Below are positions 2,315 through 17,367 of a stretch of DNA of 18,880 nt, piece by piece; position 1 is the stretch's first letter, and each line of letters starts with the position of its first letter. Position numbers and translations under genes: made by a program. The stretch comes from Oscillospiraceae bacterium. Lineage in GTDB: Bacteria; Bacillota; Clostridia; Oscillospirales; Ruminococcaceae. The stretch is taken from the NCBI GenBank assembly GCA_017394475.1, contig JAFPYQ010000309.1:1-18880 (forward strand), read 5' to 3'. Under the pieces are notes generated by a model, which did not search any database, had not been told where the DNA came from, and saw only the letters and a list, made by a program, of their open reading frames with translations.

Positions 2315-2343
2315 TTGATTTTTGGTTACAAATGTGTTACAAT
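2315..2343 (+). promoter_or_regulatory. Sigma-A-type promoter of the mdh-fumC-hdr-flx-frd operon
   Basis: The -35 box is TTGATT (2315-2320) and the -10 box is TACAAT (2338-2343), separated by 17 bases. A TG one base upstream of the -10 makes it an extended -10. The predicted transcript starts near 2350, leaving a leader of about 225 bases before the malate dehydrogenase ATG. The heptamer GTTACAA is repeated 11 bases apart (2325-2331 and 2336-2342), overlapping the -10, and may be a helical-turn-spaced regulator site. Confidence 0.65.
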
Positions 2344-2574: not shown

Positions 2575-3516
2575 ATGAGCAACAAGGTAACAATTATCGG
2601 TGCCGGCAGTGTCGGCTCTACAATCGCCTATACCATGGTCGTAAACAACATCGCCTCTGAGATCGTCCTTATTGATATCAATAATGACAAGGCAATGGGC
2701 GAGGCTATGGATATCAGGCAGGGTGTTCCGTTCTGCTCTCCTTGCAAGGTCTATGCCGGCACTTATGAGGATGCCAAGGATTCAAATGTAGTCATCCTCA
2801 CCTCAGGCGTTGCAAGAAAAGCAGGTCAGTCAAGGCTTGACCTTGCCCAGATCAATGTGGATATCACCAAGACGATCATCCCCCAGATCACAAAGAATGC
2901 ACCCGATGCGATCTATATAATCGTATCCAATCCTATCGACATCCTCACCTACCAGTTCCACAAGTTCTCGGGTCTCCCCGCTAACCATATCATCGGTTCC
3001 GGTACCACTCTGGATACTTCAAGACTCCGCACAGGTCTTTCTGAGGCTTTCGGCATAAGCCAGCAGAACGTTCATGCCTATGTTCTCGGTGAGCACGGCG
3101 ACAGTGCATTCGTGCCCTGGTCACTGGCTAATGTGGCAAGCATGCCCATAGAGGAATATATAAGCTCCCTTCCCGCCGAGAGCCGTCCTACACTGGATTA
3201 TGATGCTATCGAGGAATATACACGCAAATCCGGCGGCATGATCATCAAGAACAAGGGCGCTACCTTCTATGCTATCGCCATCAGCGTATGCCATATCTGC
3301 AAGTGCCTGTTCAGCGGTATAGACACCACTCTCACAGTTTCCACCATGATGAACGGTGAGTACGGCATTGATGACGTATGTCTCTCTGTCCTTTCCATCG
3401 TCGGCCGTGATGGTCTTACCTGCAAGCTCAATGTTCCCCTCACTAACGAGGAGACCGAGAAGCTCCGCCACAGCGCTGAGTGCCTCAAGAGCATAATCAG
3501 GGAACTCAAGTTCTGA
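2575..3516 (+). CDS. mdh: NAD-dependent malate dehydrogenase (lactate/malate dehydrogenase family)
   Basis: The 313-residue enzyme has the full lactate/malate dehydrogenase fold. The dinucleotide loop GAGSVGS spans residues 9-15, and Asp34 ends the second strand, which favours NAD over NADP. Catalytic and binding residues are present: Arg87, Asn119, Asp147 and Arg150, and the catalytic His174 in GEHGDS. The key discriminator is the substrate loop GVARKAGQSR. At the position that is Gln in lactate dehydrogenases (Gln102 in classical numbering) it has Arg81, as in malate dehydrogenases, which pairs with the second carboxylate of oxaloacetate. I therefore call it malate dehydrogenase, reducing oxaloacetate to malate with NADH in the cytosol. 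Homology-based annotation may label it lactate dehydrogenase. Its place before fumarase and fumarate reductase supports the malate role. It is the first gene of the operon, and its start is fixed by AGGAG. Confidence 0.88.
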   Translation: MSNKVTIIGAGSVGSTIAYTMVVNNIASEIVLIDINNDKAMGEAMDIRQGVPFCSPCKVYAGTYEDAKDSNVVILTSGVARKAGQSRLDLAQINVDITKTIIPQITKNAPDAIYIIVSNPIDILTYQFHKFSGLPANHIIGSGTTLDTSRLRTGLSEAFGISQQNVHAYVLGEHGDSAFVPWSLANVASMPIEEYISSLPAESRPTLDYDAIEEYTRKSGGMIIKNKGATFYAIAISVCHICKCLFSGIDTTLTVSTMMNGEYGIDDVCLSVLSIVGRDGLTCKLNVPLTNEETEKLRHSAECLKSIIRELKF

Positions 3517-3553
3517 TAAGCCGCAAGGCAGATAGAAAGGCAGATCAAAAAAG

Positions 3554-4930
3554 ATGGAATACAGAATTGAACATGATTCGATGGGCGAGGTAAAGGTTCC
3601 TGCCGACAGATACTGGGCTGCCCAGACAGAGCGCAGCCACGAGAACTTTCTGATCGGTGTGGGCATAGAGACCATGCCCAGAGAGATCACTAAGGCGTTC
3701 GGTTACCTCAAGAAGGCGGCAGCCATCGCCAACCATGAACTCAAACCCGAAAAGATGACGGATGAGAAGCTGAAGGCTATATCTCAGGCTTGTGATGAGG
3801 TAATAAGAGGGTCCCTCAATGACCACTTCCCCCTCGTTGTATGGCAGACAGGCTCCGGCACACAGTCCAACATGAACGCCAACGAGGTCATCGCCAACAG
3901 AGGCAACGAGATCGCAGGCAGCAAGCTCCTTCATCCCAATGATGATATAAATATGTCCCAGTCCTCCAATGATACGTTCCCGACTGCTATGCACATATCA
4001 GCCGTGATCGCTATCGAGGACAAGGTGATCCCCGCAGTCGATGAGCTCATAGCTACATTCAGGAGGCTCGAAGCAGAGCACGAAGGGATAGTCAAGAGCG
4101 GACGCACACACCTTCAGGATGCTACTCCCATCGCATTCTCTCAGGAGATAAGCGGATGGAGATCCTCCCTTGAAAAGGATAAGAAGCTCCTTGAGATAGC
4201 TCTTCCCGAGCTCAAGGAACTGGCTCTCGGCGGTACTGCCGTAGGCACAGGCCTCAATACTCCCAAGGGCTTTGATGTGAAAGTAGCAGCGGCTGTTTCC
4301 GAGCTCACAGGAAAGAATTTTGTGACAGCTCCCAACAAGTTCCATGCTCTCACCAGCAAGGATGAGATCGTATTCGCACACGGTGCCCTCAAAGCACTTG
4401 CTGCTGATATGATGAAGATCGCAAACGACGTTCGCTGGCTGGCAAGCGGCCCCAGAGACGGCCTCGGTGAGATAACCATACCCGAGAATGAACCCGGTTC
4501 ATCCATCATACCCGGCAAGGTAAATCCCACTCAGTGCGAACAGGTCACTATGGTGGCTGTACAGGTAATGGGAAATGATGTTGCTGTTGGAATGGCTGCA
4601 TCACAGGGCAACTTTGAACTCAATGTGTTCATGCCCGTATGTGCATACAACTTCCTCCAGTCCGCAAGACTTCTTGCAGAATCCATAACCTCCTTCAACA
4701 AGAACTGCGCGGTTGGCATAAAGGCAAACAAGGATAAGATGCATCACAATCTGCACAACTCCCTGATGCTCGTAACTGCTCTCAATCCCTATATCGGATA
4801 TGAGAACGCAGCCAAGACCGCCAAGAAGGCTTTCAAGGACAATATCTCCCTCAAGGAGGCTTGCGTGGAACTCGGGTTCCTCACTGCAGAGCGCTTTGAC
4901 GAGGTATTCCACCCTGAACAGATGATCTGA
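3554..4930 (+). CDS. fumC: Class II fumarate hydratase
   Basis: This enzyme interconverts malate and fumarate, here probably dehydrating malate in the reductive direction. The length of 458 residues is typical for the iron-independent, homotetrameric class II enzyme of the fumarase/aspartase superfamily. Signature segments are in place: GSGTQSNMNANEV near residue 100, the TH pair in SGRTHLQD with His186, and the mobile catalytic loop GSSIIPGKVNP at 315-325 with Ser316/Ser317, Lys322 and Asn324. The threonine-histidine and GSS loop distinguish the superfamily, and overall similarity fits fumarase better than aspartase or argininosuccinate lyase. The gene begins 37 bases after mdh. It ends 67 bases before hdrB, with a hairpin but no terminator between, so it should be on the same transcript. 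Confidence 0.94.
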   Translation: MEYRIEHDSMGEVKVPADRYWAAQTERSHENFLIGVGIETMPREITKAFGYLKKAAAIANHELKPEKMTDEKLKAISQACDEVIRGSLNDHFPLVVWQTGSGTQSNMNANEVIANRGNEIAGSKLLHPNDDINMSQSSNDTFPTAMHISAVIAIEDKVIPAVDELIATFRRLEAEHEGIVKSGRTHLQDATPIAFSQEISGWRSSLEKDKKLLEIALPELKELALGGTAVGTGLNTPKGFDVKVAAAVSELTGKNFVTAPNKFHALTSKDEIVFAHGALKALAADMMKIANDVRWLASGPRDGLGEITIPENEPGSSIIPGKVNPTQCEQVTMVAVQVMGNDVAVGMAASQGNFELNVFMPVCAYNFLQSARLLAESITSFNKNCAVGIKANKDKMHHNLHNSLMLVTALNPYIGYENAAKTAKKAFKDNISLKEACVELGFLTAERFDEVFHPEQMI

Positions 4931-4940
4931 CGAATCATAC

Positions 4941-4967
4941 TGCTGATGCCGCTCATGCGGCACAGCA
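4941..4967 (+). other. Intercistronic hairpin without a U run
   Basis: Arm 4941-4952 (TGCTG, A, TGCCGC) pairs with 4957-4967 (GCGGCA, CAGCA) around the loop TCAT, with one bulged A. No T run follows, so it is unlikely to terminate. It more likely protects or marks an mRNA end between the malate/fumarate genes and the hdr-flx-frd genes and could set their relative expression. Confidence 0.6.
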
Positions 4968-4997
4968 GCACAATATTTGAAAAGGGGAAATTTATAG

Positions 4998-5777
4998 ATG
5001 AAATACAGTTATTTTCCCGGCTGTACGCTCAAGAGCAAGGCGACCGAGCTTGACAAGTATGCAAGAGACTGCGCTGCTGTTCTGGGCTTTGAGATGGAGG
5101 AAATAGAGAACTGGCAGTGCTGCGGCGGCGTGTATCCCATGGCTCGCGATGAGATCGCCACCAAGCTCTCTTCTGTCCGCGCTCTTGCTGATGCAAAGGC
5201 ACATGGCCGGAAGCTGCTCACCCTCTGCTCTGCCTGCCACAATGTGATAAAGCAGGTAAACAACGACATTCTCACCGATAGCGATATCTGCAGCAGGGCT
5301 AACAACTATCTTAAACTGGACGACCCCTACAACGGCGAAACAGAGGTAGTACACTACCTTGAAGTCCTTCGTGATGAGGTGGGATTCGGCGAGCTCAAAA
5401 AGGCTGTCAAGAATCCTCTCAAGGGCAAAAAGATCGCCGCGTATTACGGTTGTCTTCTTTTGCGTCCGGGCGCTGTCATGGCTATGGACGATCCCGAGAA
5501 CCCCAGGATCATGGAAGATCTTATAAGGGCTCTGGGTGCTGAACCTGTTATCTATCCTCAGAGGAACGAGTGCTGCGGCGGCTATCTCTCTCTTGATGAT
5601 CCCGAGGCTGTTGCAAAGCGCAGGAAGAAGATCGCAGACAGTGCGAAGGAATTTGGTGCTGATATGTTTATCACTGCCTGTCCTCTTTGTATGTACAATC
5701 TCAACAAAGCAGACAGCAGCGTGCCTGTTTATTATTTCACCGAGCTTCTTGCCGAAGCCCTCGGCGTAAAGGAATAG
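4998..5777 (+). CDS. hdrB: HdrB-like subunit with two CCG domains
   Basis: The 259-residue protein consists of two cysteine-rich CCG domains. The first has Cys9, Cys41-Cys42 (CCGG), Cys77 and Cys80. The second has Cys152, Cys192-Cys193 (CCGG), Cys228 and Cys231. In methanogen HdrB these ten cysteines bind two non-cubane [4Fe-4S] clusters that split the CoM-S-S-CoB disulfide, and all are present here. Length and spacing match HdrB. This organism should not make the methanogen heterodisulfide, so the substrate is unknown. HdrB may pass electrons to the FrdB-like subunit encoded downstream, or act on another disulfide. Thiol:fumarate reductase TfrB of methanogens fuses an FrdB-like part to an HdrB-like part, which makes a contact with the fumarate reductase plausible. 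It is translated from an AAGGGG site and followed 14 bases later by hdrC. Confidence 0.9.
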   Translation: MKYSYFPGCTLKSKATELDKYARDCAAVLGFEMEEIENWQCCGGVYPMARDEIATKLSSVRALADAKAHGRKLLTLCSACHNVIKQVNNDILTDSDICSRANNYLKLDDPYNGETEVVHYLEVLRDEVGFGELKKAVKNPLKGKKIAAYYGCLLLRPGAVMAMDDPENPRIMEDLIRALGAEPVIYPQRNECCGGYLSLDDPEAVAKRRKKIADSAKEFGADMFITACPLCMYNLNKADSSVPVYYFTELLAEALGVKE

Positions 5778-5791
5778 GAGGATTTTTCAAC

Positions 5792-6169
5792 ATGGATAAA
5801 AGAGAAGAAATCCTGCTTATCAGCGGAGTAGATCCGAAGAAATGCATGCGCTGCGGCAAGTGCAGTGCTACCTGCCCCTCCTATGATGAAATGGAATACC
5901 ATCCTCATCAGTTCGTTTACATGGTGGAAACAGGCAACATAGAGCCGCTGCTCGAAAGCAAGTCCCTCTATAAGTGCCTTTCATGCTTTGCATGCATCGA
6001 AAGATGTCCCAGGGATGTGGAACCCGCCAAGCTCGTAGAGGCTGTAAGGCTCTGCGCTATCAGGCAGAAGGGCGCTAATCACATCAAGGCGGAGGATGTT
6101 CCGGAGCTTGTGGATGAAGATACACCTCAGCAGCTCCTGATGAGCGTATTCCGCAAATATTCGAAGTAA
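5792..6169 (+). CDS. hdrC: HdrC-like ferredoxin subunit
   Basis: The start chosen is the ATG at 5792, about 9 bases after a clear AGGAGG overlapping the hdrB stop. A longer frame begins inside hdrB but lacks a start signal. The 125-residue product carries two classical [4Fe-4S] motifs, Cys18-Cys21-Cys24-Cys28 and Cys62-Cys65-Cys68-Cys72, each followed by Pro or Arg-Cys-Pro context. This is the normal size for HdrC, which wires HdrA to HdrB in heterodisulfide reductase. No membrane segment is visible, so this is the soluble HdrABC type and not the cytochrome-linked HdrDE type. It is flanked by hdrB and hdrA with gaps of 14 and 12 bases. Confidence 0.92.
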   Translation: MDKREEILLISGVDPKKCMRCGKCSATCPSYDEMEYHPHQFVYMVETGNIEPLLESKSLYKCLSCFACIERCPRDVEPAKLVEAVRLCAIRQKGANHIKAEDVPELVDEDTPQQLLMSVFRKYSK

Positions 6170-6181
6170 GGAGGGAATGAA

Positions 6182-8200
6182 ATGCATAGAATAGGCGTAT
6201 TTGTATGCCACTGTGGTACCAACATCGCAGCTACTGTCGATGTAAAGGCAGTTGCGGAAGCAGCTCTCAATGAGACAGGCGTTGTTTTCTCCGCAGATTA
6301 TCAGTATATGTGTTCTGAAGCAGGACAGACCCTCGTTCAGGATACCATAAAGGAGCACAAGCTCACAGGCGTTGTAGTCTGCTCCTGTTCACCCAGAATG
6401 CATGAGGCAACATTCCGTAAGGCTGCTGCCAAGGCTGGTCTCAACTCCTACATGGTGGAGATCGCCAACATAAGAGAGCAGTGCTCCTGGATCCATAAGG
6501 ACATGATGTCCGGTACCGAGAAGGCTGTTATACTCATGCGTGCGGCTGTGGCAAAGGTAAAGCTCAATGCTCCTCTCACACCCGGTCAGACACCTGTTAC
6601 AAAGCGCGCGCTGGTAATCGGCGGCGGTATCGCAGGCATCCAGACCGCTCTTGACATCGCCGAGGCAGGCTTTGATGTTGATATAGTTGAAAAGCAGCCC
6701 ACTATCGGCGGTAAGATGACCCAGATAGACAAGACCTTCCCCACACTCGACTGTGCATCCTGCATACTCACACCTAAAATGGTGGACTGCGCACAGAACG
6801 AGAAGATACACATCTACTCCTACAGTGAGGTGGAGAGCGTTACAGGCTTTGTGGGCAACTTCACGGTAAAGATAAAGCGCAAGGCTCGTTATATAGACGA
6901 GAAGAAGTGCACAGGCTGCGGCGAATGTATCGAAAAATGCCCCATGAAGAAAGTTCCCAACGAGTTCAACCTGGGACTTGACAACAGAAAGGCCATCTAC
7001 ATTCCCTTTGCACAGGCTGTGCCCAAGGTAGCTACCATCGATTCCAACTACTGCATCAAGCTCAAGACCGGCAAGTGCGGTCTTTGCTCCACAGTCTGCG
7101 GCGCAGGTGCTATCGACTACACTCAGCAGGATACGATCATCGAAGAAAAATACGGTGCTATCGTGGCTGCAACGGGCTACAACCCCATCAATATCGAGAA
7201 ATTCGATGAATTCGCATATTCTCAGAGCCCCGATGTTATCACATCCCTTGAACTTGAAAGACTGATGAATGCGGCAGGTCCTTCCAACGGAACACTTGTC
7301 CGTCCTTCCTACCTTTCAAATCAGCATGATCCCGAGGCTCATCCCCATACCATCGTATTCGTTCAGTGCGTAGGCTCACGTTCTACGGAGTGCAGGAAGG
7401 GCAGCAAGGAATACTGCTCCAAGATCTGCTGCATGTACACTGCAAAGCATGCGATGCTCATAAGGGAGAAATATCCCGATACCGATGTATATGTATTCTA
7501 TATAGATGTCCGTACTCCCGGTAAGCTCTTCGATGAGTTCTACCGCAGAGCTGTTGAACAGTATGGCGTACACTACATCAAGGGCATGGTCGGTAAGGTG
7601 GCTCCCAAGGCCGACGGCAAGCTGAATGTCCAGGCATCCGACCTTATCTCCAACGAGCAGCTCCACATAGATGCGGATCTCGTGGTGCTCGCTACTGCCA
7701 TAGAGCCCGATAAGTCAGCAAGATCCATCGGTACTATGCTCACTGCATCGATGGATACCAATGACTTCTTCACCGAGGCTCATCCCAAGCTCAGACCCGT
7801 TGAGAGCCCCACAGCAGGCGTGTTCCTTTCGGGTGTGGCACAGGGTCCCAAGGATATCCCCGAGACAGTTACCCAGGCGAGTGCTGCTGCCGCAAAGGTG
7901 ATAGGCATACTCGTGAAGGATCAGCTCACAGGCAACCCCTGCGTTGCCCATTCCGACGAGCTCATGTGCAACGGCTGTTCTGCCTGCGAAAAGGTCTGCC
8001 CCTACGGTGCTATCACATATTCCGACAAGGAATTCAGGCAGCCTGACAGGACAGTTGCTATCCGCAGAGTCGCAAGCGTCAACCCCGCAGTTTGCCAGGG
8101 ATGCGGTGCTTGTACTGTTGCCTGCCCGTCCGGAGCTATGGATCTCAAGGGCTTCTCAAATCAGCAAATTATGGCGGAGGTTGATGCAATATGCAGGTAA
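6182..8200 (+). CDS. hdrA: HdrA-like flavin-containing electron-bifurcating subunit
   Basis: This 672-residue protein has the usual HdrA length and plan. The N-terminal part has Cys9 and Cys11 (VCHCGTN), Cys44, Cys67 and Cys69. A FAD-binding Rossmann motif GGGIAG lies at 147-152, followed by the HdrA-specific LDCASC segment near 190. A ferredoxin-type insertion has CTGCGECIEKCP at 243-254 and further cysteines near 290-310. Two C-terminal [4Fe-4S] motifs are CNGCSACEKVCP (596-607) and CQGCGACTVACP (638-649). In characterised complexes, HdrA FAD splits electron pairs between a high-potential branch (HdrC-HdrB) and a low-potential branch to ferredoxin. The last 10 bases overlap flxD, which implies coupled translation and close partnership with that electron-input subunit. 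Bifurcation activity itself is inferred from the family. Confidence 0.92.
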   Translation: MHRIGVFVCHCGTNIAATVDVKAVAEAALNETGVVFSADYQYMCSEAGQTLVQDTIKEHKLTGVVVCSCSPRMHEATFRKAAAKAGLNSYMVEIANIREQCSWIHKDMMSGTEKAVILMRAAVAKVKLNAPLTPGQTPVTKRALVIGGGIAGIQTALDIAEAGFDVDIVEKQPTIGGKMTQIDKTFPTLDCASCILTPKMVDCAQNEKIHIYSYSEVESVTGFVGNFTVKIKRKARYIDEKKCTGCGECIEKCPMKKVPNEFNLGLDNRKAIYIPFAQAVPKVATIDSNYCIKLKTGKCGLCSTVCGAGAIDYTQQDTIIEEKYGAIVAATGYNPINIEKFDEFAYSQSPDVITSLELERLMNAAGPSNGTLVRPSYLSNQHDPEAHPHTIVFVQCVGSRSTECRKGSKEYCSKICCMYTAKHAMLIREKYPDTDVYVFYIDVRTPGKLFDEFYRRAVEQYGVHYIKGMVGKVAPKADGKLNVQASDLISNEQLHIDADLVVLATAIEPDKSARSIGTMLTASMDTNDFFTEAHPKLRPVESPTAGVFLSGVAQGPKDIPETVTQASAAAAKVIGILVKDQLTGNPCVAHSDELMCNGCSACEKVCPYGAITYSDKEFRQPDRTVAIRRVASVNPAVCQGCGACTVACPSGAMDLKGFSNQQIMAEVDAICR

Positions 8201-8628
8201 ACGGAGAATTCAGACCCCTGATAGTTGCATTTTGCTGCAACTGGTGTTCCTATGCCGGCGCAGACCTTGCCGGTACCAACAGACTTAATTATCCTGCCGA
8301 TGTAAAGATAATCCGTGTTCCCTGCTCATGCAGAGTAAACCCCATGTTCGTTCTCAGAGCATTTCAGAGGGGCGCTGACGGAGTTATCCTCTGCGGCTGC
8401 CATCCCGGTGACTGCCACTATACATCAGGCAACTACTTCACAAGGCGCAGAATGACACTCCTTTTCTCCATGCTCGATTATTTCGGCATAGAAAAAGAGC
8501 GTACCCGTGTTGAATGGGTATCTGCAGCCGAGGGTGCGAAATTCGCAAAAACAATGAATGAATTTGTCGAGGCTGTTACAAAGCTCGGTGAGAACAAGAG
8601 ATTGGAGGATCTGAGATGCAAGAAGTAA
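8191..8628 (+). CDS. flxD: FlxD / MvhD-like [2Fe-2S] electron-transfer subunit
   Basis: The 145-residue protein matches the MvhD/FlxD family, with the signature CCNWCSYAGAD at residues 15-25. Further conserved cysteines are Cys45 and Cys47 (PCSCRV) and Cys68, Cys70 and Cys75 (CGCHPGDC). In methanogens MvhD carries a [2Fe-2S] cluster and hands electrons from the hydrogenase to HdrA. In bacteria with FlxABCD it does so from the NADH-oxidising Flx subunits. The start lies inside hdrA, with GGAGG 10 bases upstream. The end overlaps flxC by 13 bases, so hdrA, flxD and flxC form a translationally coupled string. No hydrogenase subunits (MvhA or MvhG) are encoded nearby, which supports NADH rather than hydrogen as donor. 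Confidence 0.9.
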   Translation: MQVNGEFRPLIVAFCCNWCSYAGADLAGTNRLNYPADVKIIRVPCSCRVNPMFVLRAFQRGADGVILCGCHPGDCHYTSGNYFTRRRMTLLFSMLDYFGIEKERTRVEWVSAAEGAKFAKTMNEFVEAVTKLGENKRLEDLRCKK

Positions 8629-9590
8629 TAGATACCGCTAAAAGGCTCTTGTCGGACGGCACCGTTAATCGCGTAGCAGGCTGGAAAGCAGGCGAATTCC
8701 CCTACGATGTCACTCCCGCTGTGTTCACCACTGTCGAGGAGATAGACAACGGCTTTATATACAACGATTTCTGCGCGCCTAATCTTTCTAAGTACCTTAT
8801 CAAGGAATCACACAAGGAAGGCAAGATCCTGGTGTTCCTCAAGCCCTGCGATACATACAGCTTCAATCAGCTGCTCAAGGAGCACAGGATACTCCGCGAG
8901 AACGTGTACATCGTAGGCGTGCCCTGCACAGGCAAGGTGGATATAGGCACAGTCCGCGCTATGGGCATCAAGGGCATCACCGATATGGAAAGTGACGGCG
9001 AGAACGTTACCATACACACCCTTTACGGTGACAAGGTAGTTCCCAAGACCGAGACCCTCGGTGATAAGTGCAGGACCTGCAAGTCCAAGAAGCATGTCAT
9101 CTATGATGAGCTCATAGGCGAGGACGGCGAGGTGAACAACGACGGAGCACGCTTTGAGCTGGTAGAAAAGCTCGAGAAGATGACTCCCGATGAGCGATTT
9201 GAATTCTGGAGAGGCGAGCTCTCCAAGTGCATCCGCTGCAATGCCTGCCGCAATGTATGTCCCGCATGTTCCTGCGAGAACTGCGTATTTGACAACCCGG
9301 GTTCCGGCATCCAGCAGAGAGCAGCAACTGACAGCTTTGAGGAGAACATGTTCCACCTCATCCGCTCATTCCATGTTGCAGGCCGCTGCACAGACTGCGG
9401 AGAATGCACAAGAGTATGTCCTCAGAACATACCTCTCCACCTTATCAACCGTAAATATATCAAGGATATAAACGTATTCTACGGCGAGTACCAGGCAGGT
9501 GAGGACGTAATGTCCAGAGCACCCCTCAATGCCTATACATTCACCGACTGTGAGCCGGGTATCGTTTATGAAAGAGGAGGTAATGAATGA
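8616..9590 (+). CDS. flxC: FlxC-like iron-sulfur subunit (F420 hydrogenase beta/ferredoxin type)
   Basis: This 324-residue protein carries an N-terminal region like the beta subunit of F420-reducing hydrogenases. It has a CRTC pair (Cys152, Cys155) and then two [4Fe-4S] motifs, Cys205-208-211-215 and Cys258-261-264-268. Between these lies an extra cysteine run (CPACSCENC). This matches the iron-sulfur subunit FlxC of the flavin oxidoreductase module that accompanies HdrABC in Desulfovibrio and other anaerobes, where it relays electrons between the NADH-oxidising FlxA and FlxD/HdrA. The start follows GGAGG inside the end of flxD, and the stop overlaps the flxB start by four bases (ATGA). The exact partner of each cluster is not known from sequence, and C-letter naming follows position and domain content. 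Confidence 0.83.
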   Translation: MQEVIDTAKRLLSDGTVNRVAGWKAGEFPYDVTPAVFTTVEEIDNGFIYNDFCAPNLSKYLIKESHKEGKILVFLKPCDTYSFNQLLKEHRILRENVYIVGVPCTGKVDIGTVRAMGIKGITDMESDGENVTIHTLYGDKVVPKTETLGDKCRTCKSKKHVIYDELIGEDGEVNNDGARFELVEKLEKMTPDERFEFWRGELSKCIRCNACRNVCPACSCENCVFDNPGSGIQQRAATDSFEENMFHLIRSFHVAGRCTDCGECTRVCPQNIPLHLINRKYIKDINVFYGEYQAGEDVMSRAPLNAYTFTDCEPGIVYERGGNE

Positions 9591-10609
9591 TGTTCAGACT
9601 TCCCATAAACGAGCTTGACGGATTTTTTGCAAAGATCGCCGCAGGGCGCAGACTCTATCTGCCCGTGGATCAGAATGACGGCACATCCGCATTTGCAGAG
9701 TGGAGCGAGGGGACAAAGATGTCTGAAAACCTCAACACACTCCGCAGCGCAAAGTCATTCTTCTTCCCCCAGGTCACAAATCTCTGTGACTTCAATGTGA
9801 AGGACAAGGAGATAGAGGTAATAGACAACCGTGCTGACAGTGAGGATTTCGCTGTTTTCGGTGTCCGCGGCTGTGATGCAAGGGCATTCACCATACTTGA
9901 CAAGGTATTCCTTGTTGACCCTATCGACAGCTACTATGCCACAAGGCGTGAGCATGGCGTCATCATCACCCTTGCCTGCACTATGCCCGAAGAGCACTGC
10001 TTCTGCAATGTTTTCGGCATTGATGCCACATCACCCGAGGGAGATGTGACCACCTGGAAAACAGACAGCTACCTGTACCTGAATGCAAACACCGAAAAGG
10101 GCGAGGCATTCATCGCAGGCATAAAGGATATTCTCGAAGAATGCGCAGCTGATGAGGTAGAGGCACAGCGCGCAAAGACCAAGGAGATCATGGCAAAGCT
10201 TCCCTTTGCAAATGTTTCCACGGAATATTTCGAGAAGAACACACTGCTTGACATATTCAATTCCGAAAAGTGGGAAAAGCTTTCCGAGGCGTGCATCGCC
10301 TGCGGTACCTGCACCTTTGTGTGCCCCACCTGCCAGTGCTACGATATCAAGGACTTTGACACAGGTCACGGCGTAAAGCGTTACCGTACATGGGACTCCT
10401 GCATGTATGCCGATTTCACGAAAATGGCGGCTGCAAACTCCAGAAATTCCCAGATGCAGCGTTTCAGGCAGAGATTCATGCACAAGCTGGTATACTTCCC
10501 CGACAATAACAACGGTGAATTCGGCTGTGTAGGATGCGGACGCTGTCTCACAAGATGTCCCATTTCCATGAATATCGTAAAAGTCATAAAGACCTTCGGG
10601 GAGGAATAG
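9587..10609 (+). CDS. flxB: FlxB-like iron-sulfur subunit (sulfite reductase subunit A-like)
   Basis: The 340-residue protein resembles anaerobic sulfite reductase subunit A and FlxB. A long N-terminal part contains the segment VFGVRGCDARAF near residue 90. A C-terminal ferredoxin domain follows, with CIACGTCTFVCP at 236-247, more cysteines in TCQC (249, 251), and CVGCGRCLTRCP at 314-325. In the Flx module it links the flavin subunit FlxA to the remaining iron-sulfur chain. No siroheme sulfite reductase subunit (AsrC) is encoded here, so a role in sulfite reduction is not supported. Either of two adjacent ATGs (9587, 9590) could be used. The first gives the four-base overlap with flxC typical of coupled translation. 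Confidence 0.85.
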   Translation: MMFRLPINELDGFFAKIAAGRRLYLPVDQNDGTSAFAEWSEGTKMSENLNTLRSAKSFFFPQVTNLCDFNVKDKEIEVIDNRADSEDFAVFGVRGCDARAFTILDKVFLVDPIDSYYATRREHGVIITLACTMPEEHCFCNVFGIDATSPEGDVTTWKTDSYLYLNANTEKGEAFIAGIKDILEECAADEVEAQRAKTKEIMAKLPFANVSTEYFEKNTLLDIFNSEKWEKLSEACIACGTCTFVCPTCQCYDIKDFDTGHGVKRYRTWDSCMYADFTKMAAANSRNSQMQRFRQRFMHKLVYFPDNNNGEFGCVGCGRCLTRCPISMNIVKVIKTFGEE

Positions 10610-10612
10610 TCA

Positions 10613-11440
10613 ATGCATAACGAAACGCTTATACCAAAGATAGGTGTCGTTACCGATATAAGGCAGGACACTCCCGATGTCAAGACTTTCAGAGTTGTCG
10701 GGACGGACGGCAAGAAGCTGTTCGAGCACATTCCCGGGCAGTGCGCGATGGTATCTATGCCCGGCGTGGGCGAGGGTATGTTCTCCATAACCTCATCCCC
10801 CACAAACACCGAATTTATGGAGTTTTCCATTAAGAAATGCGGAACTCTCACATCATGGCTCCACTCTATGGATGTAGGCCAGCAGATAACAGTAAGAGGC
10901 CCCTACGGCAACGGTTTCCCCGTGGAGACCACCTTCAAAGGCAAGGATCTGCTGTTCATCGCCGGCGGTATAGGTCTTGCACCTCTCCGCTCGGTAATAA
11001 ACTATGTCCGCGACAAGCGCGAGAATTACGGTTCTGTACAGATAATCTACGGTTCCCGTTCAAAGGATGATCTTGTGGATTATCAGGAGATCCTCGACGA
11101 ATGGATGAGCTGCCCTAATACCGAGGTCAACCTCACCATCGACCGCGAGCAGGAGGGCTGGGACGGCCATGTAGGCTTCATCCCCAACTATGTCAAGGAG
11201 CTCGAGCCCGATACCTCCAAGACTGTCGTTATGTGCGGACCTCCCATCATGATCAAGTTCACACTTGCAGGTCTCAAAGAACTGGGATTTGTGGATACCA
11301 ACGTATTCACCACTATGGAACTGCGCATGAAGTGCGCTATCGGCAAATGCGGCCGCTGCAATATCGGCAACAAGTATGTCTGCAAGGACGGACCGGTATT
11401 CAGCTTTGACCAGCTCAGCGAGCTGCCGAATGAGTACTGA
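10613..11440 (+). CDS. flxA: FlxA-like FAD/NAD(P)H oxidoreductase subunit
   Basis: This 275-residue protein is a ferredoxin-NAD(P) reductase-fold enzyme of the AsrB/PyrK group. The FAD region comes first, with a GPYGNGFP segment near residue 100. It is followed by the nucleotide-binding loop FIAGGIGLAP around 115-124 and a C-terminal [2Fe-2S] motif: Cys241, Cys246, Cys249 and Cys257, ending YVCKDGPVF. In FlxABCD-HdrABC complexes this subunit oxidises NADH and feeds electrons through FlxB and FlxC to FlxD and HdrA. NADH rather than NADPH is assumed from the family and not proven by a visible residue. The start is three bases after flxB with a GGGGAGG site overlapping its end. The next gene, frdB-like, begins 27 bases later. 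Confidence 0.88.
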   Translation: MHNETLIPKIGVVTDIRQDTPDVKTFRVVGTDGKKLFEHIPGQCAMVSMPGVGEGMFSITSSPTNTEFMEFSIKKCGTLTSWLHSMDVGQQITVRGPYGNGFPVETTFKGKDLLFIAGGIGLAPLRSVINYVRDKRENYGSVQIIYGSRSKDDLVDYQEILDEWMSCPNTEVNLTIDREQEGWDGHVGFIPNYVKELEPDTSKTVVMCGPPIMIKFTLAGLKELGFVDTNVFTTMELRMKCAIGKCGRCNIGNKYVCKDGPVFSFDQLSELPNEY

Positions 11441-11467
11441 TACAGTTCTTCAAAAGGAGCAGATATA

Positions 11468-12154
11468 ATGGAAAACATGGTTAATATATTCCTGTTCGGC
11501 AAGCAGTACAGCGTACCTGCAAGCCTTACGATAATGAAAGCAATGGAATACGCAGGCTACAAGCTCGTAAGAGGCTGCGGCTGCCGCAACGGTTTCTGCG
11601 GTGCCTGCGCTACCATCTACAGGATAAAGGGAAAGCAGGAGCTTTTCACATGCCTTGCCTGCCAGACACAGGTACAGGACAATATGTACATAGCTACACT
11701 GCCTTTCTTCCCGCTCATCAAGCAGGTCTATGACATCAACACCATCCCTACCAACCAGCAGGTGATGATGCAGCTTTATCCCGAGATCTATGCCTGTGTG
11801 GGATGTAATGCCTGCACAAAGGCTTGTACTCAGAAGCTCAATGTAATGCAGTATATCGCTTATGCACAGAGAGGCGACTTTGCAAAGTGCGCAGAGGAAT
11901 CCTTCGACTGTGTAATGTGCGGCGTATGCTCATCAAGATGTCCTGCAGGCATCTCCCATCCTCAGGTGGGTATGCTGGCAAGGCGTATCAACGGTAAGTA
12001 TCTCCAGCCCAAGACCCAGCACCTTGAGGACAGGGTAAAGGAAATACACAACGGCGATTTCAAGGAATTCCTCGATGAGCTCATGGCTGAATCCCGCGAA
12101 GAGGGACAGGCTAAGATCATGGAACGCTACAACACAAGAGAGATCGAGCAGTAA
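11468..12154 (+). CDS. frdB: Soluble fumarate reductase iron-sulfur subunit (FrdB/SdhB-like)
   Basis: The 228-residue protein begins with a plant-type [2Fe-2S] domain: Cys39, Cys44 and Cys47 in CRNGFCGAC, plus Cys62. A helical domain follows with two complete cubane motifs, Cys110-113-116-120 and Cys148-151-154-158. This order matches SdhB/FrdB. However, in quinone-linked enzymes the last motif is degenerate and binds a [3Fe-4S] cluster facing the membrane quinone site, and here it looks like a normal [4Fe-4S] site. No FrdC or FrdD anchor is present in the window. I therefore infer a soluble subunit that takes electrons from the Hdr/Flx proteins and passes them to the FrdA-like flavoprotein 15 bases downstream. 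The start has an AAAGGAG site. The C-terminal ~50 residues are charged and probably helical. Confidence 0.87.
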   Translation: MENMVNIFLFGKQYSVPASLTIMKAMEYAGYKLVRGCGCRNGFCGACATIYRIKGKQELFTCLACQTQVQDNMYIATLPFFPLIKQVYDINTIPTNQQVMMQLYPEIYACVGCNACTKACTQKLNVMQYIAYAQRGDFAKCAEESFDCVMCGVCSSRCPAGISHPQVGMLARRINGKYLQPKTQHLEDRVKEIHNGDFKEFLDELMAESREEGQAKIMERYNTREIEQ

Positions 12155-12169
12155 GGGAGGAAAGTTAAG

Positions 12170-13783
12170 ATGTACGAAAGCTACACTACAGACCAGATGC
12201 GTGAGTCTCTGAAAAAAGTTGAGGCGAACCGTGCCGCAAATGCGGCTTATGAGCCTGAAAGAATGACTGCACAGCAGAAAGATGATGTGCTTATGACATA
12301 TCATCCCGACTATATAGTATCCGAATTTGAGGACCTTAAGATCGGCCCCAACAAGGGCGAGAAGGTACCCCACCAGCTTGCTGATCTTCTCCAGGCAAAC
12401 AGCAGGATAGACCCTGCAAAGATAGACCTTGAGAACCCCAAGTATGATGTGGATGTTCTCGTTATCGGCGGCGGCGGAGCAGGTTCTTCCGCAGCTATCG
12501 AGGCTCACGAGGGCGGCGCAGACGTAATGATCGTTACAAAGCTCCGTATAGGTGATGCCAACACCATGATGGCTGAGGGCGGCATCCAGGCTGCCGACAA
12601 GCCCAACGACAGCCCCTGCCAGCACTATATAGATGCTTACGGCGGCGGCCACTTCAAGGGCAAGCCCGAGCTGGTGGCAAAGCTCGTTACAGAGGCTCCC
12701 GATGCTATCAAGTGGCTCAATGAGCTGGGCGTAGAGTTCGATAAGATGCCCGACGGCACTATGGTGACCACTCACGGCGGCGGAACATCCAGAAAGAGGA
12801 TGCATGCCTGCAAGGACTATTCCGGCGCAGAGATAATGAAGACTCTCCGTGACGAAGTGCTCAACCGTCAGATCCCCGTTGTTGACTTCACAGCAGCTGT
12901 TGAGATCATCAAGGACGACAAGGGCGCTGCAGCAGGTGCAGTCCTCATGAATATGGAAACAGGCGAGCTCATGGTAGCAAAGGCTAAGTGTGTCGTTATC
13001 GCAACAGGCGGTGCAGGCAGACTCCATTATCAGGGCTTCCCCACATCCAACCACTACGGTGCTACCGCAGACGGACTTATCCTTGCTTACAGAGCAGGCG
13101 CTAAGCTCCTCTATGCAGATTCCCTCCAGTACCATCCCACAGGTGCTGCATTCCCCGAGCAGATATTCGGCGCACTCGTTACAGAGAAGGTACGTTCTCT
13201 CGGCGCTAAGCTCGTCAATGTTGACGGCGAAGTATTCATGCATCCCCTGGAGACCCGTGATATCTGTGCATCCTCTATCATCAGGGAGTGCAAGGCTCGC
13301 GGCAAGGGCATCAGCACAGGCGACGGCGAAGGCGTATGGCTCGATACTCCCATGATCGAACTCAAGAACGGTGAGGGTACTATTGAAAAGCGCATCCCCG
13401 CTATGCTCAGGATGTTCATGGAGTACGGCATAGATATCCGCAAGGAACCCATCCTTGTATACCCCACTCTCCACTATCAGAACGGCGGTATCGACATCAC
13501 TCCCGACGGAATGAGCGGTGTTGAGAACCTCTATGTTGCAGGTGAGGCAGTAGGCGGTATCCACGGCAGAAACAGACTCATGGGCAACTCTCTCCTCGAC
13601 GTTATCGTATTCGGCAGAAATGCAGGCCGCAGCGTTCGTGAGAAGTTCAAGACCGTTACAGTTGGCAAGCTCACTCTTGAGCATGTAAACGATTTTGCCA
13701 AGGAAATGAAGGCAGCAGGCATCGAGACCGATATAGTTTCTCCCAAGCTCCTTCCCGACTATGCAAGAAAGTTCAACGGCTGA
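12170..13783 (+). CDS. frdA: Soluble fumarate reductase flavoprotein subunit (FrdA-like)
   Basis: This 537-residue flavoprotein reduces fumarate to succinate. It has the FAD loop GGGGAG at 100-105 and the family active-site residues in order: His322 (HPTG), Arg342 (equivalent to the proton-donor Arg of E. coli FrdA), His435 (YPTLHY) and Arg469 (GRNRL). Two features depart from respiratory FrdA. Where the flavin-linking His sits in SHTVAAEGG-type motifs, it has Asn131 (NTMMAEGG), so FAD is probably non-covalent, as in L-aspartate oxidase. About 95 residues of unrecognised, charged sequence precede the FAD domain, and the usual C-terminal extension is cut to about 60 residues after the active-site Arg. 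L-aspartate oxidase is an alternative, but the adjacent FrdB-like subunit and fumarase favour fumarate reductase. The start follows GGGAGG, and a terminator follows the gene. Confidence 0.88.
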   Translation: MYESYTTDQMRESLKKVEANRAANAAYEPERMTAQQKDDVLMTYHPDYIVSEFEDLKIGPNKGEKVPHQLADLLQANSRIDPAKIDLENPKYDVDVLVIGGGGAGSSAAIEAHEGGADVMIVTKLRIGDANTMMAEGGIQAADKPNDSPCQHYIDAYGGGHFKGKPELVAKLVTEAPDAIKWLNELGVEFDKMPDGTMVTTHGGGTSRKRMHACKDYSGAEIMKTLRDEVLNRQIPVVDFTAAVEIIKDDKGAAAGAVLMNMETGELMVAKAKCVVIATGGAGRLHYQGFPTSNHYGATADGLILAYRAGAKLLYADSLQYHPTGAAFPEQIFGALVTEKVRSLGAKLVNVDGEVFMHPLETRDICASSIIRECKARGKGISTGDGEGVWLDTPMIELKNGEGTIEKRIPAMLRMFMEYGIDIRKEPILVYPTLHYQNGGIDITPDGMSGVENLYVAGEAVGGIHGRNRLMGNSLLDVIVFGRNAGRSVREKFKTVTVGKLTLEHVNDFAKEMKAAGIETDIVSPKLLPDYARKFNG

Positions 13784-13789
13784 TAAAGC

Positions 13790-13821
13790 TCTCCGCAGTG
13801 TTATGCACTGCGGAGATTTTC
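13790..13821 (+). terminator. Intrinsic terminator after frdA
   Basis: The arms 13790-13800 (TCTCCGCAGTG) and 13806-13816 (CACTGCGGAGA) pair perfectly around a 5-base loop and are followed by TTTTCT. It begins seven bases after the frdA stop and closes the eleven-gene operon. Confidence 0.88.
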
Positions 13822-13939
13822 TGTCTGCGGACGAAAACGTCAAGATATATTGTTCATATATTGCGGTCATTCAGGGATGTATTTGTGAAAAATAGACAAA
13901 GTTATTTGCCTGATTTACAGCTTTTTGCTGAAATTGTGC

Positions 13940-13968
13940 TTGATATTAGTTGGTGAAAGTGGTATAAT
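13940..13968 (+). promoter_or_regulatory. Sigma-A-type promoter for the cation efflux gene
   Basis: TTGATA (13940-13945) and a perfect TATAAT (13963-13968) are separated by 17 bases. The expected start is near 13975, giving a leader of about 145 bases before the transporter start. Between the frdA terminator and this promoter (13822-13939) I see only AT-rich sequence without a gene. Confidence 0.85.
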
Positions 13969-13985
13969 TATAGCAGTGTTGGAGT

Positions 13986-14092
13986 ATTCGCAGAAAATGA
14001 CAGGTAAGGGTGCCTGCCTCCGGGATAGAGGCTTCATCCCTTAAGAATAACAGATCATGAAAATAACGGAGAATTCAGGATTATTTGCGAAT
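13986..14092 (+). promoter_or_regulatory. Candidate metal-sensing riboswitch (NiCo/czcD-like) upstream of a cation efflux gene
   Basis: A closing helix ATTCGCA (13986-13992) with TGCGAAT (14086-14092) encloses about 93 bases. Inside, AAGGG (around 14006-14010) can pair with CCCTT (14038-14042). Between these, GCCTC (around 14016-14020) pairs with GAGGC (14028-14032). ACAGG near 14000 can alternatively pair with CCTG. The multi-helix form, the CAGGTAAGGGTGCCTG and GGCTTCATCCC segments and the position before a cation diffusion facilitator recall the NiCo (czcD) riboswitch from memory. The GGGGAGUAG signature of the manganese yybP-ykoY class is absent. No U-run terminator is visible before the gene, so control of translation start or of an unseen terminator is possible. 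Class assignment needs a covariance search. Confidence 0.5.
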
Positions 14093-14120
14093 TGACGGAA
14101 AGAAAAGTCAATGAGCGGAT

Positions 14121-15314
14121 ATGAGATATGTAAAGCAGGAAAGAAGATTGACCGATCTACTGTTAAAAAGATTTGTAAAGGATCATGAGAATACAGCCGA
14201 TCCGAAAGTCCGTGCTGCATACGGGCGGCTGGGCGGCACAGTGGGCATCGTGACCAATATCCTGCTTGCGGTGATAAAGTACATCGCAGGCGTGATATCC
14301 GGCTCGGCAGCTATCATATCGGATTCGGTAAATAATTTTTCGGACAGCATAAACAGCATAGTGACCCTTGCAGGCATGTCTGCTGCGGCAAAGCCCGCTG
14401 ACAGGGAGCATCCCTACGGACATGGAAGGACTGAGTATCTCACCGCCCTGTGCATAGGCATAGCCATAGTTTATGTGGGCATATCACTGCTGGTGTCCTC
14501 GGTGAAAAAGGTGATACATCCGGAGCCGGTCACACCCTCTGCGGCAGTGCTCATAGTGCTCGGTATTTCGATACTTATGAAGCTGTGGCTGTCGCTGTTC
14601 AACAAGAAGCTGGGAAAAATGGCGGATTCTTCCGTTCTGATGGCAAATTCCCAGGACTCACGGAACGATATTTTCGCCACAGGTGCAGCCTTTGCGGGAA
14701 CGGCTTCCGCATACTTCACCACCCTTCCCGTGGATGCGGTGATGGGCGCTGTGGTGTCCCTCTATGTAACATATTCGGGATTCGGTATACTGAGAGATAC
14801 CATAGGCGACCTGCTGGGGCGATCTGCTTCGGATGAGACCATAGGCAGGCTCAAAGAGATCGTGAGCAAAGATGACCGCATTCTGGGCGTCCACGATATC
14901 ATGATACACGATTACGGCCCGGGACATTCCCTTGCATCCTGCCATGTGGAAGCGGACAGCAGGGAATCTCTGGTGGAGATACATGACATTATAGATGATG
15001 CGGAGAATGAGGTGTATGAACAGCTGGGGATACTCCTCACCATACATATCGACCCTGTGGATACAGAGGATGATGACCTCATCCGCTGCCGTGATATGAT
15101 CGCAGGATTTGTCCGTACACTGTGCGAAAATGCTGATATCCACGATGTGCGCATCGTCCATAAGCATACAGAGCCGCTGCTTGAATTTGATGTAATTTTT
15201 CCCTATGGGAAGGAAAAATGCAGCAGCGGATACCGCGAAAAGATAGAAAGCTTTCTTGACTGTAATTTCCCCGATCTCAGATACCGCTTCGAGATCGAGT
15301 ATGATAACAGATGA
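14121..15314 (+). CDS. Cation diffusion facilitator family metal efflux transporter
   Basis: The 397-residue membrane protein belongs to the CDF family, which exports divalent metals in exchange for protons as a dimer. About six hydrophobic segments lie between residues 40 and 240, followed by a cytoplasmic domain with His- and Asp-containing stretches. The metal-site pairs are N71-x3-D75 (NNFSD) in the second helix and D179-x3-D183 (DSRND) in the fifth. The Asn-Asp/Asp-Asp set resembles manganese exporters such as MntE more than the His-Asp sites of zinc exporters. The ATG at 14121 has no good ribosome-binding site. A TTG at 14148, five bases after AGGAAAG, would start at MTDLLLKRF, the usual N-terminus of clostridial CDFs, and may be the true start. 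A promoter and structured leader precede it, and the SLOG gene overlaps its stop. Confidence 0.9.
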   Translation: MRYVKQERRLTDLLLKRFVKDHENTADPKVRAAYGRLGGTVGIVTNILLAVIKYIAGVISGSAAIISDSVNNFSDSINSIVTLAGMSAAAKPADREHPYGHGRTEYLTALCIGIAIVYVGISLLVSSVKKVIHPEPVTPSAAVLIVLGISILMKLWLSLFNKKLGKMADSSVLMANSQDSRNDIFATGAAFAGTASAYFTTLPVDAVMGAVVSLYVTYSGFGILRDTIGDLLGRSASDETIGRLKEIVSKDDRILGVHDIMIHDYGPGHSLASCHVEADSRESLVEIHDIIDDAENEVYEQLGILLTIHIDPVDTEDDDLIRCRDMIAGFVRTLCENADIHDVRIVHKHTEPLLEFDVIFPYGKEKCSSGYREKIESFLDCNFPDLRYRFEIEYDNR

Positions 15315-17066: not shown

Positions 17067-17339
17067 ATGAAAAAAGCAGTTATAACGGTAATAGGCAAGG
17101 ATGCGGTGGGCATACTTGCGAAGGTGAGCACAATATGTGCTGATGCCAAGGCAAATGTAATAGAAGTGACACAGAGCGTGCTGCAGGATATGTTTGCAAT
17201 GATAATGCTTGTGGATATAGATAAGATAGACATTGAATTTTCCGAGCTGGTGGACAGGCTCACAGCGCTGGGCGATGATCTGGGACTGAAGATCCACACC
17301 ATGCACGAAGATATATTCAATACCATGCACACGATATGA
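17067..17339 (+). CDS. UPF0237 family ACT domain protein
   Basis: This is a 90-residue protein made of a single ACT domain, the small amino-acid-binding fold. It begins with a typical ACT strand and loop ([17 protein letters not shown]), and the rest matches the UPF0237 family in length. ACT domains usually bind amino acids and regulate a partner. The ligand here is unknown. The ribosome-binding site is AGAGGCG. It lies 21 bases after the nucleotidyltransferase-like gene, so read-through from that promoter is possible. The family is regularly found directly before UPF0210, as here, which suggests the two proteins work together. Confidence 0.9.
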
Positions 17340-17367
17340 TCGCGCTGCTTTGAGGGACAGACCGGCT

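Follow-up and report, generated by a model that had tools for sequence, protein, structure and literature searches.

Eleven open reading frames of a gut-type Clostridia genome, all on the + strand at positions 2575-13783 of the window (the whole stretch of DNA that was analysed, 18,880 nt), are likely, with a probability of roughly 0.7, to encode a cytoplasmic electron-bifurcating NADH:fumarate/ferredoxin oxidoreductase ending a fermentative succinate pathway, and the energy surplus of the final step would probably be captured by the operon as reduced ferredoxin. The gene set, its order, the cofactor motifs and the co-inheritance of the genes are established from the sequence.

Gene content of the operon

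An eleven-gene + strand operon leading from oxaloacetate to succinate had been proposed in the preliminary description of this DNA, and open reading frames, spacing and domains bear this out: the intergenic spacing ranges from -13 to +67 bases, a purine-rich Shine-Dalgarno-like stretch lies 5' of each of the eleven genes, and the Pfam and NCBIfam domains of the products agree with the earlier gene names, most of them scoring far above the Pfam cut-offs. The operon is thus a genuine observation, and its gene set is widespread. With respect to the claim that it runs from one promoter to one terminator, the terminator stands, as a strong intrinsic-terminator-like hairpin of 12 pairs followed by a T-run (13790-13816, + strand). 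The promoter is less secure: the site TTGATT-17-TACAAT with TG (2315..2343, + strand) is a consensus match only, one of 36 promoter-like sites vs 26.7 +/- 5.1 in shuffles. An Rfam scan of the window gave no match at the gathering score.

The product of the first gene (2575..3516), a member of the LDH family, scores above the NCBIfam cut-offs for L-lactate dehydrogenase (374 vs 339 and 341 vs 303.55 bits) and below those for malate dehydrogenase. Malate dehydrogenase is nevertheless the better reading because the substrate-specificity position, at which we take Gln to denote lactate and Arg to denote malate, is occupied by Arg81 and not by Gln, with Arg in all 58 aligned copies (90 loci were searched, 58 of which yielded a copy); a plain lactate dehydrogenase is rejected on account of this residue. 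The second gene (3554..4930) codes for a class II fumarate hydratase, FumC, that scores above its NCBIfam cut-off. Of the two types of PEPCK, the GTP-dependent one (PF00821) was found in 13 of the 14 genomes searched, including G000, and the ATP-dependent one (PF01293) in none of the 14. As a side observation, 1y6j, which is titled lactate dehydrogenase, likewise has Arg at the specificity position.

The following seven genes comprise a complete Hdr-Flx module with the features of FlxABCD-HdrABC. The HdrB-like subunit (4998..5777) has two complete CCG motifs (Cys 9-41-42-77-80 and 152-192-193-228-231), and the HdrC-like subunit (5792..6169), whose start was set at 5792 as the mechanical open reading frame opens earlier, inside hdrB, has two [4Fe-4S] motifs. 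HdrA (6182..8200) has a FAD domain as well as N-terminal, inserted and C-terminal cluster sites, the latter two in ferredoxin domains, and aligns end to end with the solved bifurcating HdrA of a methanogen (5odc_A, 678 bits), with matching FAD motif and cluster cysteines. The Flx subunits are all present (PF00175, PF10418, PF17179, PF13183, PF02662), namely the MvhD-type FlxD (8191..8628, PF02662), the [4Fe-4S] dicluster protein FlxC (8616..9590), the FeS protein FlxB (9587..10609), which is related to the sulfhydrogenase beta subunit, and the FAD/NAD(P)H-binding FlxA (10613..11440), which contains FAD, NAD and C-terminal cluster domains. Hydrophobic segments are absent from all nine Hdr, Flx and Frd proteins.

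Fumarate reductase subunits and proposed electron path

FrdB (11468..12154, 228 aa) carries one [2Fe-2S] and two [4Fe-4S] motifs but is only distantly related to named families, which weighs against the proposed role, and it lies just above the Pfam cut-offs (Fer4_9 28.5 vs 27, Fer2_4 24.1 vs 22.8). It aligns with the 488-position TfrB model over positions 19-168 only and is devoid of a CCG domain; its third cluster motif, Cys148-x2-Cys151-x2-Cys154, is invariant in 15 of 15 sequences and of the [4Fe-4S] rather than the [3Fe-4S] type. The predicted structure of FrdB has a mean pLDDT of 52.

The flavoprotein FrdA (12170..13783) has six residues, His322, Thr338, Glu339, Arg363, His435 and Arg469, which were located by alignment to E. 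coli SdhA, are invariant in 28 of 28 aligned sequences and are presumably catalytic by this correspondence. Alignment to 1nek places Asn131 at what we take to be the position of the covalent-FAD His in complex II, just as the third cluster motif of FrdB presumably corresponds to the [3Fe-4S] site there. The FrdA model has the Frd/Sdh fold with 1kf6 as top structural match; in addition there is a conserved N-terminal extension of about 85 residues, and the part N-terminal of about residue 71 is covered by none of the 50 structural matches listed, which is no proof of a new fold. The best NCBIfam match of FrdA is TfrA, at 335 bits and below the curated cut-off of 718 bits. Among culturable bacteria, Solibaculum mannosilyticum and Clostridium leptum possess homologues of FrdA with 80% identity. 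That FrdA acts on another substrate is highly improbable. One homologue (P0180) bears the database name L-aspartate oxidase and the fold is common to FrdA and 1knp; however, the nadB model reaches only 263 bits, the same assembly has its own, separate NadB-like protein (436 bits, just under the cut-off of 452.75), and a fumarase is encoded in the operon of FrdA. An aspartate oxidase is rejected on the TfrA score and the separate NadB-like protein.

We infer complex formation, electron path, ferredoxin reduction and direction as follows. GTP-PEPCK, encoded elsewhere in the genome, would carboxylate PEP, and malate dehydrogenase and fumarase would make fumarate. FlxA would accept the hydride of NADH and the electrons would pass via FlxBCD to HdrA, where the pair would be split at the FAD: one electron would travel through HdrC-HdrB and FrdB to the FrdA flavin, where fumarate would be converted into succinate, and the other from HdrA to ferredoxin, with the predicted net reaction 2 NADH + fumarate + Fd(ox) -> 2 NAD+ + succinate + Fd(red2-). 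The ferredoxin might then be reoxidised by the bifurcating-type [FeFe] hydrogenase in the genome (group A6, with a NuoF-like partner, in G000) or, in relatives, by Rnf. Oxidation of NADH by Flx and a split of the electrons at HdrA between ferredoxin and fumarate are consistent with every motif tested. No biochemical test of an Flx-Hdr/FrdAB complex was found in the accessible parts of the open-licence PubMed Central literature.

An unlikely alternative is that Flx-Hdr feeds NADH electrons to FrdAB without bifurcation, HdrA acting as a wire in a soluble NADH:fumarate reductase for the disposal of NADH. The operon would still be sensible as a redox sink, subunits for NADH binding, FeS clusters and the fumarate site are all encoded, and the reduction of ferredoxin is a prediction. 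However, for a wire the entire bifurcating architecture retained by HdrA, including its C-terminal ferredoxin domain, would be superfluous. Moreover, in three loci (L121, L123 on a 3.8 kb contig, and L129) HdrC-HdrB alone lies directly 5' of FrdB without an adjoining HdrA, the genomes carrying HdrA elsewhere; this argues against HdrA as a wire and points to a contact between HdrB and FrdB. In Pseudoclostridium thermosuccinogenes, succinate formation nearly stops upon addition of H2 (85%), which the authors, in the accessible text, ascribe to ferredoxin coupling (PMC7282089).

Still less probable is a route via thiols, in which Hdr-Flx would reduce a disulfide, DsrC-like or of low molecular weight, and a Tfr-like unit would re-oxidise the thiols with fumarate, no direct complex being formed. 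The CCG sites are thiol/disulfide sites in Hdr and Tfr, which would suit this chemistry, as would the match of FrdA to TfrA. The available portion of PMC7282089 lets the Flx-Hdr electrons go to ferredoxin '(and thiols)'. However, as FrdB lacks the CCG domain and matches TfrB only in part, thiol oxidation would need HdrB itself and a direct path from HdrB to FrdB is simpler; in addition, none of the eleven genes of the operon was recognised as coding for a thiol carrier.

Conservation and co-inheritance

A search for conserved gene order, proposed as a check in the preliminary description, found hdrBCA-flxDCBA-frdBA, read from core matches of at least 48% identity, unbroken in all 80 named Clostridia loci as far as the contig or fetched stretch reaches, with all nine genes present in 64; these are the best 80 of 573 confirmed stretches. 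Since the order is kept in all of these 80, chance clustering is ruled out for this gene set. Within the class (245 genomes), HdrA is found in 33 of the 34 genomes with FrdB but in only 5 of the 211 others (Fisher statistics that ignore kinship), and in 30 of the 34 the two genes are 3,255-3,467 bp apart on the same strand. It had been stated that frdAB and hdr-flx never being linked would refute the proposal; this is not what is seen inside the class, whereas elsewhere in the phylum 13 of 29 FrdAB loci have no hdr or flx gene nearby, in about 9 kb fetched on each side and with a contig end less than 4 kb away on one side in 4 of the 13. HdrA at E<=1e-60 is lacking, among the matches listed, in 3 of the 30 FrdB genomes of the phylum draw. 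Some of the loci devoid of hdr and flx adjoin cytochrome b561 (L140, L141) or FMN-binding proteins (L122, L135), which suggests that FrdAB can have other donors.

At L130, genes for OGOR and the succinyl-CoA synthetase SucCD adjoin FrdAB, which would fit a reversed reaction where reduced ferredoxin drives the oxidation of succinate (confurcation) during syntrophic growth or the metabolism of peptides; in principle, Hdr complexes can work in both directions. However, this direction seems hardly credible for the operon in the window, as malate dehydrogenase, fumarase and GTP-PEPCK form the standard reductive route to succinate and the eleven genes include none for succinate activation.

In a quick tree of HdrB (121 of 131 matches, 10 below 200 bits being excluded, including rows of the FrdAB genomes G130 and G185; loci fetched only around listed full-length HdrA matches), the FrdAB-linked HdrB form one clade of 40 rows (SH-aLRT 99) composed of FrdAB genomes only. 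It holds 35 of the 36 linked rows, L126 being the sole exception, 5 of the 21 with FrdAB elsewhere in the genome and none of the 64 from genomes without FrdAB. In G010, G185, G210 and G235 FrdAB stands apart, yet the HdrB type of the FrdAB clade is present. The HdrA tree, likewise a quick one, also groups by FrdAB, and linked versus none takes 2 changes in either tree; the AU test of one clade gave p 0.516 for HdrB and 0.67 for HdrA, for a group named after the tree was seen. Because HdrA separates equally, HdrB is not singled out as the coupling signal. Linkage in the class, the HdrB tree and the kept gene order support a dedicated partnership of Hdr-Flx with FrdAB, and the mechanism inferred in the preliminary description is the best of those considered. 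On balance, and at odds slightly better than even, FrdAB of this type may be an interchangeable soluble module for fumarate reduction to which a separate lineage of HdrABC is dedicated. Across the phylum it occurs together with complete Flx-Hdr, with HdrCBA and a giant HdrA-like protein, with only HdrCB, or next to membrane or FMN-binding proteins, and the Hdr lineage of a genome would predict the presence of FrdAB irrespective of the distance between the genes. In that case, a sizeable fraction of bacterial Flx-Hdr complexes, particularly those of gut Clostridia, would have fumarate as their physiological high-potential acceptor.

Known systems and energetic implications

The preliminary description knew of no fumarate version of such a complex; however, the idea of fumarate-coupled Flx-Hdr bifurcation has appeared in print before, for a related bacterium, and the window adds another member. 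As far as its accessible text goes, PMC7282089, citing a preprint by Koendjbiharie and van Kranenburg (2019, 10.20944/preprints201912.0288.v1), presents the same gene set, the same proposal of a ferredoxin-coupled fumarate reductase and RNA data for the 'succinate operon' of P. thermosuccinogenes (CDQ83_RS03365-03315). Like the window, it has a fumarate hydratase gene, Flx-Hdr genes (RS03360-30, seven if the tags step by five) and two fumarate reductase genes (CDQ83_RS03325-20), the order being matched by the locus-tag list; the window differs by the malate dehydrogenase gene at the front and the absence of a transporter-like gene at the end. The RNA of that operon rises about 4-fold at low CO2, not significantly for all subunits, and that of Rnf falls. 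In the available parts of PMC6776889 and PMC5861303 no fumarate-type Flx-Hdr was seen.

Quinol:fumarate reductase or complex II (1kf6, 1nek) shares the fold and catalytic residues of FrdA; in contrast, the operon has no membrane anchor (gaps of at most 67 bases), a [4Fe-4S]-type instead of a [3Fe-4S] motif, and no covalent-FAD His. The thiol:fumarate reductase TfrAB of methanogens (NCBIfam NF004900, NF004898), in which we take the CCG domain to be fused in TfrB, resembles the window in having a soluble pair of the FrdA/FrdB type and a CCG domain through which the electrons pass, whereas in the window that domain is separate, as HdrB, with NADH as the predicted electron source via HdrA; FrdB here has no fused C-terminal CCG domain and FrdA stays below the TfrA cut-off. 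The Flx-Hdr or Hdr-Flox of sulfate reducers was reportedly treated by Ramos in 2015. It is the same seven-subunit NADH module, with DsrC or another disulfide as proposed acceptor according to the accessible part of PMC4215793, a 2014 paper in which redox partners of Flx-Hdr and proof of bifurcation were still being sought.

According to the accessible text of PMC5861303, Clostridia without cytochromes and menaquinone had been considered to depend on substrate-level phosphorylation alone for energy conservation. Should the complex convert the NADH-fumarate gap of about 350 mV into reduced ferredoxin, many gut and rumen Clostridia would gain more energy and H2 from fermentation to succinate than a plain NADH sink would give, and the high-potential acceptor for a major branch of bacterial Flx-Hdr would be named. 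The view that this proceeds without a membrane fumarate reductase is unsupported for the present assembly (72% complete, 477 contigs), in which contig C259 carries an SdhCAB-like set; independence of quinones may hold as far as the menD route is concerned, menD being above the cut-off in none of 14 genomes with weak matches in 13.

A related complex, tfrAB-flxABCD-hdrABC, is suggested in the accessible part of PMC6315080. In tubeworm symbionts and Thioflavicoccus, tfrAB is interspersed with flxABCD-hdrABC and korABCD (PMC6315080, PMC11636981, as far as available), so that Flx-Hdr is clustered with a soluble fumarate reductase as in the window; however, that set functions in the reductive TCA cycle together with OGOR, and the reductase is named TfrAB. 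In Endoriftia the expression pattern of tfrAB is unlike that of the cluster (PMC11636981, as far as available), and in P. thermosuccinogenes a redox potential lowered by Na2S acts opposite to H2 (PMC7282089, as far as available); both observations count against the proposed bifurcation. Locus L130, with OGOR and SucCD by FrdAB, is closer to the arrangement of the symbionts and Thioflavicoccus.

Operon layout and identity of the first gene

With respect to the operon proposed in the preliminary description, the sequence confirms it as genuine: eleven plus-strand genes occupy positions 2575-13783 of the window with intergenic gaps of -13 to +67 bases, in the order malate dehydrogenase, fumarase C, HdrB, HdrC, HdrA, FlxD, FlxC, FlxB, FlxA, FrdB and FrdA, and the operon is widespread in other genomes. 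The assembly is fragmentary (2.26 Mb in 477 contigs, 72% complete). As for transcription from one promoter to one terminator, the terminator is supported by a terminator-like hairpin of 12 pairs 3' of FrdA, but for the promoter there is a consensus match only. On the 5' side lie two pilin-like genes (341-2053), coding for prepilin-like proteins with N-terminal methylation motifs, and a terminator-like hairpin (2058-2092). On the 3' side, a cation efflux transporter of the cation diffusion facilitator type and a YpsA-like SLOG protein (14121-15847) overlap by four bases, and an ACT-domain protein is followed by a DUF711 protein with a TTG start (17067-18723).

The first gene is an L-lactate dehydrogenase according to NCBIfam. 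In this enzyme family, Gln or Arg at the specificity position sets the substrate choice. The residue is Arg in the window (position 81, in 'GVARKAG') and in all 58 copies aligned from the 90 operon loci searched, and it is Gln in the solved lactate dehydrogenase 4m1q and Arg in 1y6j, which is likewise titled lactate dehydrogenase. Because of this Arg and the adjoining fumarase, the gene is read here as a malate dehydrogenase, and the NCBIfam name was set aside.

Linkage of frdBA to hdr and flx genes

In the named collection, an FrdB relative is encoded in at least 573 of 596 matched stretches, and gene-order conservation, a check proposed in the preliminary description, was examined in the best 80 of these: with matches of at least 48% identity, the order hdrBCA-flxDCBA-frdBA is intact in all 80, to the limit of each sequence. 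All nine genes are present in 64 of these best 80 loci, with a fumarase match in 59 and a malate dehydrogenase match in 54 of the 64. Among the matches listed, the named genomes closest in FrdB are Clostridia MAGs, Oscillospiraceae and Ruminococcus included, for the most part of animal gut origin.

As the best 80 loci are close relatives, wider samples were drawn from the class and the phylum. Among 245 genomes of the class, FrdB was found in 34 (that of the window included) and HdrA in 38; 33 of the 34 FrdB genomes also contain HdrA, and in 30 of the 34 HdrA ends 3,255-3,467 bp upstream of FrdB on the same strand, so that the possibility that frdAB and hdr-flx are never linked in related genomes can be dismissed. 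Of the other four, three have HdrA on a different contig and one (75% complete) gave no HdrA match. HdrA without FrdB occurs in five class genomes; the 5,340-base contig of one of them (G327) stops at flxA. In the phylum sample of 299 genomes, FrdB occurs in 30 and HdrA in 111, 27 of the 30 having both.

Beyond the class, 29 FrdB loci were examined. Full Hdr and Flx sets are present at five of them, with frdBA first in four and last in one. At eight, a FlxD match accompanies a large HdrA-like protein; seven of these show HdrC, HdrB and a normal HdrA as well, and the eighth (locus L128) is cut by the contig end. At locus L130 the large protein (11755-15051) is HdrA2-like, with 1098 residues and three matching stretches, and adjoins HdrCBA, FlxD and FrdAB, with genes for OGOR and succinyl-CoA synthetase (SucCD) downstream. 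HdrC-HdrB directly precede FrdB at three loci, and 13 show no hdr or flx gene within the fetched stretch, a contig end lying less than 4 kb away on one side in four of these (L114, L127, L137, L139); in another of the 13, L116, FrdAB adjoins a class I fumarase and malic enzyme. At four more of the 13 the neighbours differ again: cytochrome b561-type membrane proteins directly 3' of FrdA (L140:6753-7742, L141:6727-7713) suggest a membrane-linked version of FrdAB, and FMN-binding-domain proteins with unknown conserved proteins (clusters c41-c44) directly before FrdAB (L122:10178-13794, L135:3762-9316) are possibly a further donor module. Since 13 of the 29 loci show no hdr or flx and some have other neighbours, the association of FrdAB with Hdr-Flx is not obligatory, and this speaks against the claim in its strongest form.

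Phylogeny of HdrB and HdrA

As a test independent of gene linkage, a tree was built of 121 full-length HdrB sequences taken from the fetched loci; a single clade (SH-aLRT 99) holds 40, every one from a genome with FrdAB. It takes in 35 of the 36 sequences with FrdB in the same locus (of these 36, the class of the window contributes 21), five of the 21 from genomes with FrdAB elsewhere, and none of the 64 (61 genomes) from genomes lacking FrdB. In four of those five, FrdAB stands alone in the genome (G010, G185, G210, G235); in the fifth (G091), which has a long branch, it adjoins FMN-binding genes. The 16 outside the clade comprise ten whose genomes possess another Hdr that is linked (G044, G049, G088, G123, G180, G252, G276, G281), one whose FrdAB contig is cut (G254) and five in which FrdAB adjoins b561-type or FMN-binding genes (G033, G039, G075, G080). 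The one linked sequence outside, from L126, also has a long branch. Because the HdrA tree gives the same separation, it is, judging by sequence, the whole Hdr lineage and not HdrB alone that tracks FrdAB; no such statement was found in those parts of the literature that were searched. Many HdrA genes of FrdAB-less genomes (e.g., L180-L200) contain one in-frame, selenocysteine-like TGA, which is marked in none of the FrdAB-linked HdrA sequences among the matches listed.

Proposed bifurcating fumarate reduction and its metabolic setting

HdrA matches the solved methanogen HdrA (5odc_A) over its full length (678 bits) and carries the FAD motif and the inserted and C-terminal ferredoxin domains. 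HdrB has both CCG motifs, its best curated matches being the MFR anchor SdhE and HdrB, each below cut-off. Among solved chains, FlxA is nearest to sulfhydrogenase gamma and FlxB to sulfhydrogenase beta, and FlxD is an MvhD-type adaptor. The conserved N-terminal extension of FrdA (about 85 residues, window 12170-12430), with E18, R21, R31, H45, P46, D47, G59 and G63 invariant in 28 of 28 and a mostly high-confidence predicted structure, is a candidate docking element. About 68 kJ/mol is set free when NADH reduces fumarate, against a cost of about 19-35 when it reduces ferredoxin; on these background potentials the coupled reaction would therefore run downhill.

Bifurcating fumarate reduction is the best explanation of the operon, with a probability of roughly 0.7, and was proposed earlier. 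The available text of PMC7282089 describes a 'succinate operon' of this type in Pseudoclostridium thermosuccinogenes, that of PMC6315080 suggests a Flx-Hdr complex with TfrAB and OGOR, and that of PMC8542988 lists Tfr, Mvh and Hdr as members of one Cloacimonadota cluster; because these precede it, the novelty first claimed for a fumarate-type Hdr system falls. A search of open-licence PubMed Central found no proof of the mechanism. New from the present analysis are the breadth of the distribution, an Hdr lineage dedicated to FrdAB and the exchange of partners.

The preliminary description also assumed that a membrane fumarate reductase was lacking, which is unsupported for the window's genome: contig C259 (L261:157-3538) carries genes for SdhA and SdhB, preceded by an ORF in which four hydrophobic segments are predicted. 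These may encode a succinate dehydrogenase or another fumarate reductase, of the membrane type, contamination being possible on so short a contig. SdhB relatives occur in four of 21 genomes, this one included, and RnfC is above cut-off in 13 of 21, this one not among them. No menD match exceeded the cut-off in 14 genomes searched, 13 of which gave weaker ones. GTP-PEPCK was found in 13 of 14 genomes searched (including that of the window) and ATP-PEPCK in none of 14, in agreement with the succinate route through GTP-PEPCK that the available text of PMC7282089 gives for P. thermosuccinogenes. [FeFe] hydrogenases are present in 13 of 14 genomes; on contig C156 of the window's genome (L262:4239-7894), one of group A6, above cut-off, adjoins a NuoF-like subunit, and the two could in principle spend ferredoxin together with NADH.
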